From contig NZ_JACHJV010000001.1 in the NCBI RefSeq assembly GCF_014203855.1, forward strand, positions 1,922,001 through 1,986,000: 64,000 bases of DNA. The letters are read 5' to 3'. This stretch comes from Kitasatospora kifunensis (lineage in GTDB: Bacteria; Actinomycetota; Actinomycetes; Streptomycetales; Streptomycetaceae). The notes beneath the pieces are model-generated. The model was not told the DNA's origin. It ran no database searches and saw only the letters and a list, made by a program, of their open reading frames with translations. Each line of letters opens with the position of its first letter. Positions within the stretch are counted from its first letter, which is position 1. Positions 38,270 to 44,087 of the stretch are shown one piece after another. The position numbers were made by a program, and so were the translations under genes.

Positions 38270-38980
38270 GTGCGACTCACCCCCACCGAACGGGACCGGC
38301 TACTGATCTTCACAGCCGCCGAACTGGCCCGCGCCCGGCGCGCCCGCGGCTGCCGGCTCAACGTGCCCGAGGCCACCGCACTGATCGCGGACGCCGTCTG
38401 CGAGGCCGCCCGCGACGGCAGGCGGCTGGCCGAGGCGATCGAGGCCGGCCGCAGCGTGCTGAGCGCCGACGACGTGCTGCCCGGGGTGCCGGACGTGGTC
38501 ACGGTGGTCCAGGTGGAGGCCGTGTTCGACGACGGCACCCGGCTCGCCGTGGTCAACGACCCCTTCCAGGGGGCCGGTTCACTCGGCGAGGACGCCCCGG
38601 GCGCGGCCCTGCCCGGCACCGGCGAGGGCTACGACCCGATCGAGGAGACCGTGGTCCTCGCCGTCCACAACACCTCCGCGGTCCCGATCTCGGTCACCTC
38701 GCACTACCACTTCTTCGAGGTCAACCCGCGCCTGGCCTTCGACCGCGCGGCCGCCTACGGCACCCGGCTCGCCGTCCCGGCCGGCTCCTCGGTCCGCTTC
38801 GACCCGGGCGCCGTGGTCGAGGTCGGTCTGGTGCCGATCGCGGGCGAGCGGGTGGCGATCGGCTTCGCCGGCCTGGTCGACGGTCCGCTGGACGCCCCCG
38901 GCGCCCGCGAGGCCGCGCTGGCCAAGGCCCGCGCCACCGGCTACCTGATCAACTTCGACGACCAGGAGGTCGAGTCGTGA
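38270..38980 (+). CDS. Fused urease gamma-beta subunit (urease-like locus)
   Basis: 236-residue protein joining the two small urease subunits. Residues 1-100 are the gamma part (VRLTPTERDRLLIFTAAELARARRARGCRLNVPEATALIADAVCEAARDGR). Residues about 125-225 are the beta part (ETVVLAVHNTSAVPISVTSHYHFFEVNPRLAFDRAAAYGTRLAVPAGSSVRFDPG, then GLVDG). They frame the UreC active site. GTG start with GAGG nearby; the frame is open far upstream, but this start gives the family N-terminus. Overlaps ureC by 4 bases (GTGA at 38977), so the subunits are translated together. No ureD/E/F/G is present within the window. Confidence 0.92.
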   Translation: MRLTPTERDRLLIFTAAELARARRARGCRLNVPEATALIADAVCEAARDGRRLAEAIEAGRSVLSADDVLPGVPDVVTVVQVEAVFDDGTRLAVVNDPFQGAGSLGEDAPGAALPGTGEGYDPIEETVVLAVHNTSAVPISVTSHYHFFEVNPRLAFDRAAAYGTRLAVPAGSSVRFDPGAVVEVGLVPIAGERVAIGFAGLVDGPLDAPGAREAALAKARATGYLINFDDQEVES

Positions 38981-40704
38981 CGTCCATCCCCCCGCACGAC
39001 TACATCTCCGTGCACGGCCCGCGCGCCGGTGACCGGATCCGGCTCGGCGACTCCGGCCTGATCGTCCGCGTCGAATCCGACTCCCAGGCGCCGGGCGAGG
39101 AGTTCCTGGCCGGCTTCGGCAAGACCGCGCGCGACGGCCTGCACCTGAAGGCCGCCACCGTCCGCTCCACCTGCGACGTGGTGATCAGCAACGTGCTGGT
39201 GATCGACGCGATCCAGGGCATCGTCAAGACCTCGATCGGCCTGGTCGGCGGCCGGATCGCCGCCATCGGCCGGGCCGGCAACCCCGACACCATGGACGGC
39301 GTCGAGGTGGTGGTCGGCACCGGCACCACCATCGTCTCCGGCGAAGGCATGATCGCCACCGCCGGCGCCATCGACACCCACGTCCACCTGCTGTCACCGC
39401 GCATCATGGAAGCCTCGCTGGCCTCCGGTGTGACCACCATTATCGGCCAGGAGTTCGGCCCGGTCTGGGGGGTCGGCGTCAACTCGCCGTGGGCACTGCG
39501 GCACGCGTTCAACGCCTTCGACGCCTGGCCGGTCAACATCGGCTTCCTCGGCCGGGGTTCGTCCTCCGACGCCGGTCCGCTGGTGGAGGCGCTCGCCGAG
39601 GGCGGGGCCAGCGGCTTCAAGGTGCACGAGGACATGGGCGCCCACACCCGTGCGCTGGACACCGCGCTGCGCGTCGCCGAGGAGTACGACGTCCAAGTCG
39701 CCCTGCACACCGACGGCTTGAACGAATGCCTGTCCGTCGAGGACACCCTCGCCGTCCTCGAGGGCCGCACCATCCACGCCTTCCACATCGAAGGCTGCGG
39801 CGGCGGGCACGTCCCCAACGTGCTCAAGATGGCCGGCGTCGCCAACGTCATCGGCTCCTCGACCAACCCCACCCTCCCGTTCGGCCGCGACGCCCTCGCC
39901 GAGGCCTCCGGCATGATCGTCTCCGCCCACGACCTCAAACTCGACCTCCCCGGCGACGCCGCCATGGCCCGCGACCGGATCCGGGCCGGCACCATGGGCG
40001 CCGAAGGCATCCTGCACGACCTCGGCATGATCGGCATCACCTCCTCCGACGCCCAGGGCATGGGCCGGGCCGGCGAAACCGTGCGCCGCACCTTCGCCAT
40101 GGCCGGCAAGATGAAGGCCGAACGCGGCCCACTGGACGGCCCGGACGGCGGCTACGGCACCCGCGAGAGCGGCGACGACAACGAACGCGTCCTGCGCTAC
40201 ATCGCCAAGCTCACCATCAACCCCGCCATCGCCCACGGCCTCTCGCACGAGGTCGGTTCCATCGAGGTCGGCAAGCTCGGCGACATCGTGCTGTGGCGCC
40301 CCGACCACTTCGGCGCCAAACCACAGCTGGTCCTCAAGGCAGGCTTCCCCGCCTACGGCGTGGTGGGCGACCCCAACGCCTCCACGGACCGCTGCGAACC
40401 CCTGGTCCTTGGACCGCAGTTCGGCGCCCACGGCGCCACCGCCGCCGACATCTCCGTCGCCTTCGTCGCCCAAGCCGCCGCCGACGGCGCCTATCTGGAC
40501 CAGGTGGGCGACCAACTTCCCACCCGGCGACGGCGGGTGGGAGTACGCGGCACCCGCGGCATCGGCCCGCGCGACCTGGTGCGCAACGCCCGCACCGGCC
40601 AGGTCAGCGTGGACGCCGGCACCGGCCTCGTCTCGCTGAACGGCGACCCGCTGCGCTCCGAGGCCTCCGAGAGCGTCTCGCTCAGCCGCCTCTACTTCCT
40701 GTAA
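38977..40704 (+). CDS. ureC: Divergent urease alpha subunit (UreC-like amidohydrolase)
   Basis: 575-residue nickel-amidohydrolase homologue. Metal ligands match Klebsiella UreC: His135, His137 (THVH), carbamylated-lysine candidate Lys215 in FKVHED, His244, His270, Asp358. The flap base His318 and Arg334 are also kept. Pocket residues differ: the flap Cys is Ala317 (SAHD instead of VCHH), HEDW is HEDM, the Ala before the conserved Met after Asp358 is Gly361, and the loop between GPxxG and PW (about 161-172) is around four residues shorter. Start GTG overlaps ureAB. Agmatine deiminase follows 29 bases downstream. It may hydrolyse urea or, by context, a substituted urea such as N-carbamoylputrescine (inference). 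Confidence 0.9.
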   Translation: MTSIPPHDYISVHGPRAGDRIRLGDSGLIVRVESDSQAPGEEFLAGFGKTARDGLHLKAATVRSTCDVVISNVLVIDAIQGIVKTSIGLVGGRIAAIGRAGNPDTMDGVEVVVGTGTTIVSGEGMIATAGAIDTHVHLLSPRIMEASLASGVTTIIGQEFGPVWGVGVNSPWALRHAFNAFDAWPVNIGFLGRGSSSDAGPLVEALAEGGASGFKVHEDMGAHTRALDTALRVAEEYDVQVALHTDGLNECLSVEDTLAVLEGRTIHAFHIEGCGGGHVPNVLKMAGVANVIGSSTNPTLPFGRDALAEASGMIVSAHDLKLDLPGDAAMARDRIRAGTMGAEGILHDLGMIGITSSDAQGMGRAGETVRRTFAMAGKMKAERGPLDGPDGGYGTRESGDDNERVLRYIAKLTINPAIAHGLSHEVGSIEVGKLGDIVLWRPDHFGAKPQLVLKAGFPAYGVVGDPNASTDRCEPLVLGPQFGAHGATAADISVAFVAQAAADGAYLDQVGDQLPTRRRRVGVRGTRGIGPRDLVRNARTGQVSVDAGTGLVSLNGDPLRSEASESVSLSRLYFL

Positions 40705-40733
40705 CCCTCCTGAAACCCCGAGGACTTGCCGCC

Positions 40734-41786
40734 ATGACCACCCCCGCCTCGCTCGGCTACTCGATGCCCGCCGAATGGCACCCGCACGAGCGCACCTGGA
40801 TGGCCTTCCCCACCGACAACCAGACCTTCGACACCCCCGAGGCCCTGCACGCCGCCCGGCTCGCCTGGGCGAAGGTGGCCAACACCATCGTCCGCTACGA
40901 GCCGGTCACCCTGGTCGTCAACCTCGGCGAGAGCACCGCCGCCCGCGAGTACCTCACCGAGCAGGTCGAGATCGTCGAACGCCCGCTGGACGACGCGTGG
41001 ATGCGTGACATCGGCCCCACCTTCCTGACCAACGGCCAGGGTTCACTGGCCACCGCCGACTGGATCTTCAACGGCTGGGGCGCCCAGTCCTGGGCCAGCT
41101 GGGAGCACGACCAGCACATCGCCGAGCACGTCAGCGAACTGACGAAGGCTCAGCGTTTCGCCTCCCGCCTGATCAACGAGGGCGGCGGCATCCACGTGGA
41201 CGGCGAAGGCACCGTACTGGTCACCGAGACCGTCCAACTCGGCGAGGGCCGCAACGCCGACTGGACGAAGGAGGAGGTGGAGGCCGAACTGCACGCCCAC
41301 CTCGGCACCACCAAGGCGATCTGGCTGCCGCGTGGACTGACCCGCGACTACGACGAGTTCGGCACCCGCGGCCACATCGACATCGTCGCCTCCTTCGCGC
41401 GCCCCGGCGTGGTTCTGGCCCACGTGCAGCCCGACCCCGCCCACCCGGACCACGCCGTCTGCCAGGAACTCCTCGCCATCCTGCGCGCCGCCACCGACGC
41501 CCGGGGCCGCCGTCTGGAGGTCATCGAACTGCCCGCCCCCACCGTGCTGCACGACGAGGACGGCGAGCCGGTCGACTACTCCTACATCAACCACTACGTG
41601 GCCAACGGCGCCGTCATCCTGTGCGCCTTCGACGACCCCCGCGACCAGGAGGCGGCCGAGATCCTCGCCGAGGCCTTCCCCGGCCGCACGGTCGAACTGG
41701 TCGACGCCCGCGAGATCTTCGCCAACGGGGGCGGCATCCACTGCATCACCCAGCAACAGCCGAAGGCCGACACGGCCGCACACTGA
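40734..41786 (+). CDS. aguA: Agmatine deiminase
   Basis: 350-residue guanidine-group hydrolase converting agmatine to N-carbamoylputrescine and ammonia. Family blocks: MPAEWHPHERTWMAFPTDNQTF, LDDAWMRDIGPTF (about residues 85-97), INEGGGIHVDGEGTVLVTE, RGHIDIVASF, and the catalytic cysteine Cys337 in FANGGGIHCITQQQP. Length fits AguA (about 350-370). It follows the urease-like ureC by 29 bases with no terminator, so they are probably one transcript. The usual partner, the nitrilase-type N-carbamoylputrescine amidase AguB, is not in the window. Confidence 0.9.
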   Translation: MTTPASLGYSMPAEWHPHERTWMAFPTDNQTFDTPEALHAARLAWAKVANTIVRYEPVTLVVNLGESTAAREYLTEQVEIVERPLDDAWMRDIGPTFLTNGQGSLATADWIFNGWGAQSWASWEHDQHIAEHVSELTKAQRFASRLINEGGGIHVDGEGTVLVTETVQLGEGRNADWTKEEVEAELHAHLGTTKAIWLPRGLTRDYDEFGTRGHIDIVASFARPGVVLAHVQPDPAHPDHAVCQELLAILRAATDARGRRLEVIELPAPTVLHDEDGEPVDYSYINHYVANGAVILCAFDDPRDQEAAEILAEAFPGRTVELVDAREIFANGGGIHCITQQQPKADTAAH

Positions 41787-43263: not shown

Positions 43264-43422
43264 GACCGATCGGCACATGGTGGGCGGCGTCGCGACGCCC
43301 GGACTCTCCCCTGGACGGCTTCTCCTTAAGGAGCCAATGCTCCGCAGTGGCTCCCTCGTCGGCACCGCCCAGACTCGGCCCGGACGCCGCTCCTTCCTCC
43401 ACCCACCATGTGCCGATCGGTC
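43264..43422. mobile_element. MITE-like element with 21-bp perfect terminal inverted repeats
   Basis: 159 bases. Left end 43264-43284 (GACCGATCGGCACATGG...) is the exact reverse complement of 43402-43422. The bases flanking both ends are TTA (43261-43263 and 43423-43425), a likely 3-bp target duplication of the TNA kind made by some IS5-group elements. There is no ORF for a transposase; the interior has a CTCCTTAAGGAG palindrome (43322-43333). It occupies nearly the whole gap between the DUF4328 and TetR genes and could also act as a terminator. Confidence 0.7.
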
Positions 43423-43469
43423 TTAGGCTGAGGGGCACCCCCGCCCCCACGTCCCAAGGAGCCCGCAGC

Positions 43470-44087
43470 ATGGCAGAGCCTCGTCCCCGGCGGCCCGCCC
43501 GGCCTCGGGAGGAGGTGCTGGCGGTGGCGATGGCCGCGATCGCGGAGCACGGGTTGGCGAGGCTGACCATGGCGGGGCTGGGCAAGCAGCTGGGGATGAG
43601 CGCCGGGCACCTGCTCTACTACTTCGGCAGCAAGGACCAGTTGCTGCTGGAGACGCTGCGCTGGAGCGAGGAGCAGCTGGGCGAGCGCCGGCGGGCGGTG
43701 CTGGAGCAGCCGGGACTGAGCGCCTGGCAGCGGTTCGAGGCGTATGCGGAGCTGTATCTGGCGGACGGGCCTGGGGATCCGCGGTGGATCCTGTGGGTCG
43801 AGGTGTGGGGGCGCTCCCCGGCCAGTGCGGAGATCCGGCAGGGACAGCTGGCGATCGAGGCGCCGTGGCAGGCGGACCTGGCGGCGTTGATCGAGGACGG
43901 GGTGGAGCGGCGCGAGTTCGGGCCCGGCTCGGCCGAGGAGCGGGCCGCCCAGCTGCGGGCCGTACTGGACGGGTTCTCGGTCCCGCTGGCGATCGGGCTG
44001 CCAGGGGTGGCGCGGGAGAGTTCGGCGGCCCAGGTGCGGGCGGTGGCGGCGGCCGTACTGAAGCCCTCGGCCGCCGACCGGAGATGA
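43470..44087 (+). CDS. TetR-family regulator
   Basis: 205-residue repressor. N-terminal HTH (REEVLAVAMAAIAEHGLARLTMAGLGKQLGMSAGHLLYYFGSKDQLLLETL) and a C-terminal BetI/TetR_C_6-like domain (YAELYLADGPGDPRWILWVEVWGRSPASAEIRQ). AAGGAG lies upstream of the ATG. A MITE-like element ends 44 bases before its start and may carry or disrupt its promoter. Target genes are not evident; it stands alone and converges with the PP2C-like gene. Confidence 0.87.
   Translation: MAEPRPRRPARPREEVLAVAMAAIAEHGLARLTMAGLGKQLGMSAGHLLYYFGSKDQLLLETLRWSEEQLGERRRAVLEQPGLSAWQRFEAYAELYLADGPGDPRWILWVEVWGRSPASAEIRQGQLAIEAPWQADLAALIEDGVERREFGPGSAEERAAQLRAVLDGFSVPLAIGLPGVARESSAAQVRAVAAAVLKPSAADRR

Follow-up and report, generated by a model that had tools for sequence, protein, structure and literature searches.

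The DNA analysed here (the window) is a stretch of 64,000 nucleotides of the Kitasatospora kifunensis genome (contig NZ_JACHJV010000001.1, positions 1,922,001–1,986,000), in which three consecutive forward-strand genes encode a fused pair of small urease subunits, a homologue of the urease alpha subunit, called UreC* below, and a protein of the agmatine deiminase family. The first gene, ureAB*, extended from a GTG start at position 38,270 to a TGA stop at 38,978–38,980, and its 236 amino acid product combined the gamma and beta subunits (Pfam Urease_gamma, 122.9 bits, and Urease_beta, 106.5 bits; NCBIfam NF009671, 315.6 bits for a cut-off of 243). It overlapped by four bases (GTGA) the gene ureC* (38,977–40,704, with a GTG start at 38,977 and a TAA stop at 40,702–40,704), encoding 575 amino acids with Urease_alpha and Amidohydro_1 domains and a remodelled pocket. 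The aguA-like gene (40,734–41,786) started with an ATG 29 bases past the end of ureC* and stopped at 41,784–41,786. Its 350 amino acid product matched PF04371 (PAD_porph) with 378.4 bits, and the Pfam domains of all three proteins scored above their cut-offs. The coordinates and Pfam matches bear out the three-gene layout given by an earlier interpretation made from the letters of the window, hereafter the sequence-only reading. That reading had also reported that the window lacks ureD, ureE, ureF, ureG and AguB. Searches by tblastn at E 0.001, with one query each for UreG, UreF and UreD and two AguB-like queries, gave no match in the window; UreE was not tested.

The window copy of UreC* kept H135, H137, K215, H244, H270, D358, H318 and R334. 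It showed A317 at the position of the flap Cys, an HEDM motif, G361 at the position of Ala363 and a loop (161–172) four residues shorter than in Klebsiella. The residues listed in the sequence-only reading, from the metal ligands to the shortened loop, thus hold by alignment. Across the 31 rows aligned for the clade to which UreC* belongs, the metal ligands (H135, H137, K215, H244, H270 and D358) and the residues H217, D219, H318 and R334 were invariant. The pocket was altered in the 24 clade rows used for tree building. The flap Cys was replaced by Val or Ala in all 24, and the second flap His by D, G, R, V or E in 23, only L052 retaining it. The loop after strand 2 was shortened by 4 residues in 20 rows and by 11 in the other 4, which removed or replaced the stretch containing Ala167 (Klebsiella numbering) in every row. 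Ala363 was changed to Gly in 20 rows, the four rows of a branch associated with nonribosomal peptide synthetase (NRPS) genes keeping Ala, and the motif HTDTLNE was changed to HTDGLNE or HSDGLNE in 19. In urease, the carbonyls of Ala167, Ala363 and Gly277 contact urea.

At 611.4 bits UreC* stayed under the cut-off of 680 of the urease alpha equivalog TIGR01792, and it passed the broader subfamily model NF009686. The equivalog score and the Cys-His-His flap of ureases were lacking, while the metal site and the fold were present. The AlphaFold model of UreC* (mean predicted local distance difference test 85.4, predicted template modelling (TM) score 0.91) superposed on the K. aerogenes urease 1krc with a TM score of 0.92, and comparison with ureases gave Z scores of up to 53.7 over 554 residues. 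A UreC tree of 44 rows, rooted at midpoint only, split the 24 UreC*-type rows from the 20 canonical ones with a support of 100/100, in agreement with the separate clade expected from the sequence-only reading.

The deiminase neighbour was conserved together with UreC*. Among 396 genomes of the phylum, UreC* orthologues of at least 82% identity were confined to the Streptomycetaceae (the next best matches reached at most 52%), and the deiminase immediately followed UreC* in all 15 orthologous loci that were fetched, the present window included. Approximately 208 of 297 Streptomycetaceae genomes possessed UreC* and 222 the deiminase, as derived by list subtraction (209 for UreC* when genome G421 is counted); the holders of UreC* included many Streptomyces, Kitasatospora and Streptacidiphilus. 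The two genes were adjacent and on the same strand in 103 of the 106 family genomes for which both had listed coordinates, with a median gap of 46 bp (the listed rows comprised 139 UreC* and 150 deiminase genomes, second UreC* copies being left out). The three remaining genomes were G623, which has another, adjacent copy, and G454 and G509, with the genes on different contigs. Loss of the ureC-aguA adjacency in relatives had been named in advance as a refutation; the adjacency is kept. The deiminase neighbour was also present in the Streptosporangiaceae Thermoactinospora rubra and Thermocatellispora tengchongensis, and at approximately 45–50% identity the link was maintained with a changed order, the deiminase being downstream in L046, upstream in L047 and divergent in L059. 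In seven other genomes (L055, L112–L117), extra UreC* copies had between one and five deiminase-family genes around them. The best 80 of 335 relatives, ranked by an L034-type query, not randomly sampled and some with short flanks, were split by two motif patterns into 43 loci with HxDGLNE and 34 with the CHH-type flap, three loci fitting neither. A deiminase was found at 37 of the 43 HxDGLNE loci and at none of the 34 CHH-type loci. The signature and the deiminase neighbour recur across the clade, and the locus is more than a chance arrangement.

Accessory genes for nickel insertion followed the same division. Within the fetched flanks of these 80 loci, UreG, UreF and UreD were absent from all 43 HxDGLNE loci, and UreG was present at 31 of the 34 canonical ones. 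In 19 genomes, all detected ureC-type genes were of the UreC* type. Eleven of these genomes belong to the family, including three single-contig assemblies, and 8 are distant; of the latter, six are in the UreC tree and two (G103 and G070) are fragments showing the signature. UreG was above the cut-off in none of the 19; two weak hits (G523 and G573, 31–33 bits) resembled the second weak hit of the control genome G323 (30 bits). UreD was found in one of the 19 (G484, partial). That UreC* exists in such genomes goes beyond the sequence-only reading. Both UreG and UreD scored in three of three control genomes with a canonical urease; UreE and UreF were not searched genome-wide. Judging from this gene content, metal loading of UreC* in the clade probably does not depend on UreD and UreG, with Ni, Fe, Mn and Zn as candidate metals. 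Loci with ureC and no UreG detected in the fetched flanks were also seen in Bacillus sonorensis (L212), L202, L208, Thermalbibacter longus (L175) and an Acidimicrobiaceae metagenome-assembled genome (L201), the flap variants of L175 and L201 lying outside both motif classes.

The K. kifunensis genome (9.57 Mb, 4 contigs) contained four ureC genes. Two were canonical, with accessory genes nearby (L012 and L013, at C1:521–526k and C1:6977–6984k), and UreD was found only at these two loci. The fourth, on contig C2 (L014), was an 83% paralogue of the window copy surrounded by four deiminase-family genes. Two deiminase paralogues of L014 (6999–15675) had apparent N-terminal signal or lipoprotein regions. 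Several deiminase-family paralogues with TetR-like regulators were present in L014 and L112–L117, with an oligopeptide-type ATP-binding cassette (ABC) permease in L014, and these clusters are possibly an extracellular guanidine deimination system.

The supposed lack of AguB also held for the whole genome at the curated cut-off, the best match to the AguB model TIGR03381 reaching 258 bits where 410 are required. The cut-off was passed in 0 of 41 genomes and in 2 of 14 control genomes; with no AguB above it, the N-carbamoylputrescine step would need a replacement enzyme. The gene scoring 258 bits, a type-1 nitrilase present in 32 of 33 family genomes checked (not in G399), adjoins an aminotransferase and a dihydropyrimidinase and therefore looks like a beta-ureidopropionase. 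It was rejected as the missing AguB in view of this dihydropyrimidinase neighbour and of its presence in all 11 genomes devoid of both deiminase and UreC*, a side activity being possible.

In UreC* genomes of the Streptomyces-type genus g2, taken as Streptomyces by inference, the gene order was LeuB-IlvE-NCS1 permease-UreAB-UreC-AguA-TetR-LeuA (L061 and L063; the permease-to-LeuA part in L111). The window also contained a TetR/BetI-type regulator gene (43,287–44,087, forward strand, start codon uncertain; Pfam TetR_N and TetR_C_6; tblastn match at 43,515–44,015), 55% related to the regulator directly 3' of aguA in the Streptomyces-type loci. In six genomes (L104–L109) the order was LeuB-IlvE-AguA-TetR-LeuA, the permease and UreAB*-UreC* (together UreABC*) missing as a block, and in two further deiminase-only loci (L216 and L219) AguA directly followed IlvE. 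The six deiminase-only genomes placed in a deiminase tree formed one clade. A second AguB-like amidase, type 2, had AguB as its sole NCBIfam match at E 1e-30 and N-carbamoylputrescine amidohydrolase as its best solved relative. Among nine confirmed deiminase-only genomes, 7 carried it at 82% identity or more (8 of 10 if G104, whose deiminase locus is cut off by the end of its contig, is counted), compared with 3 of approximately 209 UreC* genomes. As first drawn, before the correction of G421, in which a fragment of UreC* lies at the end of a contig, the distribution was 8 of 11 deiminase-only genomes, 0 of 11 with both genes and 0 of 11 with neither; G436, G442, G447, G448 and G507, whose deiminase is close to or at the end of a contig or whose hits are weak, were left unclassified. 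This distribution is consistent with type-2 AguB having displaced UreABC* in the deiminase-only clade, without proving it.

The deiminase of the window carried the catalytic Cys, His and Asp of pentein deiminases (Cys337, His214, Asp216 and Asp92 by alignment to 1vkp, 6nib, 2ewo and 2jer). Polyamine-type transport genes were found near UreC in several members of the clade. PotA/D/B-type genes were directly 3' of UreC in L048 (PotA with 382.8 bits for a subfamily cut-off of 355.6, the others under theirs), and spermidine/putrescine-type ABC genes were near UreC in L052, where none reached its cut-off, and in the freshwater actinobacteria L183 and L186 (PotA with 371.8 bits, over the cut-off, in L183). 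Such genes accompany three distant groups of the clade and speak for polyamines as substrates.

Other neighbourhoods differed in their partner genes. An Amidohydro_3 gene adjoined UreAB-UreC in freshwater and other actinobacteria (L183:2795–11829, L186:3625–13625, L135:5956–10683 and L176:3098–7084), followed in L183 and L186 by an AAT-type protein, a DAO oxidoreductase and then the spermidine/putrescine-type ABC genes. A 64%-identical UreAB-UreC pair was part of a conserved NRPS cluster (L066–L072) on plasmids of Embleya, Kitasatospora and Streptomyces (NZ_CP108786.1, NZ_CP109408.1, NZ_CP109047.1 and NZ_CP109401.1). In three annotated records this cluster comprised an FkbM-NRPS, two NRPS, a condensation protein and a phosphotransferase, and in L068 a 528-aa-class protein with no Pfam match; one NRPS-linked pair had a dN/dS of 0.38, higher than the deiminase-linked form. 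In L059 (1465–5848) the deiminase was divergent from UreABC and was followed by a large DAO and GCV_T gene resembling sarcosine/dimethylglycine dehydrogenase, a neighbourhood that would suit creatine-like substrates. In the distant, long-branched member L052 (9404–10894), an amidase-signature enzyme was directly upstream of UreAB.

We propose that UreABC* is a metallohydrolase of the urease fold whose substrate is a mono-substituted urea (R-NH-CO-NH2) produced by the neighbouring deiminase, and give this reading a probability of about 0.58. The sequences themselves show that the gene order is conserved, that the metal site is intact and the pocket changed, and that some genomes have only the UreC* type and no UreG above the cut-off. 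In this model, the deiminase would convert a guanidino compound, R-NH-C(=NH)-NH2, into the ureido compound, whose carbon would be attacked by the hydroxide held by the two metals and the carbamylated Lys215. The flap His318 would protonate the leaving nitrogen, and the carbamate would decay unaided, so that the pair of enzymes would turn a guanidine into an amine, ammonia and CO2. N-carbamoylputrescine, on the way from agmatine to putrescine, is the leading substrate, a choice to which we give somewhat less than an even chance; otherwise another ureido compound would be used. The sequence-only reading had proposed its hydrolysis in replacement of AguB. The distinct clade, the conserved neighbour, the own genome without AguB above the cut-off and the AguB-like amidase in most members of the clade devoid of UreABC* speak for that proposal, which is supported in part, N-carbamoylputrescine being a candidate substrate. 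Still tentatively, the clade could be seen as a urease-fold ureido hydrolase family, common in Streptomycetaceae and sporadic elsewhere in Actinomycetota, with metal loading free of UreD and UreG and a new guanidine-to-amine route replacing AguB, from agmatine or a related compound to putrescine or a related one; one branch would have been co-opted by an NRPS pathway, in which it would modify a ureido or a guanidino group.

Several observations weigh against this proposal or parts of it. The residues catalytic for urea remain in UreC*, and two canonical rows, L031 and L040, share the Gly at Ala363 and have a loop shortened by 3 residues. The C319A variant of Klebsiella urease, met in the structure comparison, is a solved structure, and this variant is active; loss of the flap Cys was rejected as proof of a new substrate, C319A being a known variant. 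Concerning the metal, UreD is present at the canonical loci of K. kifunensis, and activation of the window UreC* in trans by the canonical chaperones is therefore possible in this genome. Concerning agmatine, the deiminase scored 330.2 bits against the agmatine deiminase equivalog TIGR03380, below its cut-off of 381.8, so that another guanidino compound is possible as substrate. It has a three-residue insertion and the motif GT(R/L/N)GH where plant enzymes have D-T-N-G-H, in the stretch that contains Asp220 of the Medicago AIH (MtAIH), the residue binding the terminal amine of agmatine (PMC6447857, in the accessible part). No OKR-type arginine decarboxylase was found in the K. kifunensis genome, other classes of the enzyme and agmatinase not having been searched; should agmatine be the substrate, its origin may therefore be external, or a decarboxylase of another class may form it. 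The permease of the Streptomyces-type core locus is of the NCS1 type (PF02133) and not a polyamine carrier, and the extra UreC* copies adjoin oligopeptide-type transporter genes, which counts against strict agmatine use. The Amidohydro_3 partner in L135, L176, L183 and L186 and the NRPS cluster in L066–L072 count against N-carbamoylputrescine. Concerning type 2, it reached 218 bits for the AguB cut-off of 410 and was outscored on that model by the ubiquitous type-1 nitrilase (approximately 253–266 bits), which also matched the plant CPA better (200 bits against 157). The deiminase-only genomes G598 and G399 are devoid of type 2; G421, G424 and G561 carry it along with UreC*, and G611, a UreC* genome, has a 63% relative. 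Since the six deiminase-only genomes placed in the deiminase tree form one clade, the type-2 pattern is essentially one replacement event and the p-value of the association is not independent evidence, which, with the UreC* fragment of G421, weakened the association as a statistical argument.

The rival that survives best, although we consider it unlikely, is that UreABC* is a urease acting on urea without accessory proteins, like UreA2B2 of Helicobacter mustelae, the deiminase being a neighbour through a shared nitrogen-scavenging regulon. The invariance of the metal ligands and of H217, D219, H318 and R334 fits this explanation, as do the match of the model to the H. mustelae urease 3qga (Z 49.1), the two canonical rows with Gly and a shorter loop, and the precedent for a nickel- and accessory-independent urease (PMC2846917, in the accessible part). 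It is opposed by the deletion or replacement of the Ala167 stretch and the change of the flap Cys in all 24 rows, by the change of Ala363 in 20 of them, by the frequent presence of a canonical urease in the same genomes, by the restriction of the deiminase neighbour to UreC*-type loci among the best 80 of 335 relatives, and by the members located in NRPS clusters.

It is less probable still that UreABC* acts before or beside the deiminase, opening or trimming an imported heterocycle or amide, the substrate of the NCS1 permease, whose product would then be deiminated. In the Streptomyces-type loci the permease gene is divergent from ureAB* and was lost with UreABC* in the deiminase-only clade, and the folds closest to the model after ureases were hydantoinases and dihydroorotases. 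However, no NCS1-type permease was found in the window, or up to 6 kb away from the loci checked in Kitasatospora, in Streptacidiphilus and in more distant members, and the persistence of the deiminase without UreABC* fits better with an upstream deiminase. That UreABC* is a non-catalytic or unlinked, decaying urease paralogue retained by linkage is very improbable: UreC* was cleanly lost in one clade and is therefore dispensable, but dN/dS was 0.08–0.11 in three pairs, indicating purifying selection, the active site is invariant, the adjacency is conserved across families, and the extra copies keep their deiminase neighbours.

In teaching, urease is commonly presented as an enzyme with a single substrate and a need for dedicated nickel chaperones. 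Judged by its genomic features, a clade present in approximately 70% of the sampled family genomes (208/297) conforms to neither expectation. The proposed hydrolysis of substituted ureas, if true, would add a new activity to an old enzyme scaffold and supply a missing step in the use of guanidine and polyamine nitrogen by major antibiotic-producing bacteria. It would call for caution in describing bacteria as ureolytic from ureC alone (in three annotated plasmid records UreC* is named urease subunit alpha) and would provide a natural system for studying how the urease fold is metallated without UreDEFG. A partial literature search, with few subscription journals, found no report joining the UreC* type to a deiminase, a signature or a function. 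Clusters with only ure(AB)C were noted in 2008 in S. coelicolor (SCO5526) and S. avermitilis (PMC2492869); they are probably the same genes, and the available part of that report gives no deiminase link, signature or function.

Compared with the canonical nickel urease UreABC of K. aerogenes and S. pasteurii (PF00449, TIGR01792), UreABC* is alike in its subunits, fold, metal ligands, flap His and Arg. It differs by the score of UreC* under the equivalog cut-off, the lost flap Cys, the shorter loop, the lack of adjoining accessory genes and the deiminase neighbour. The iron urease UreA2B2 of H. mustelae has the same fold, but in sequence UreC* resembles it no more than it resembles canonical ureases, and UreA2B2 is a urease by name; it is not known to be coupled to a deiminase. 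In the AguA-AguB pathway of P. aeruginosa and plants, deimination is followed by hydrolysis of the ureido compound (PMC9397018 and PMC6447857, in the accessible parts). The deiminase is of the same family as that of the window, whereas the second enzyme has a nitrilase fold, in place of the urease fold of UreC*. The agmatine deiminase and putrescine transcarbamylase of Enterococcus provide another use of N-carbamoylputrescine not involving a nitrilase (PMC9397018 and PMC6022934, in the accessible parts), by phosphorolysis and not by the hydrolysis that we propose for UreABC*.

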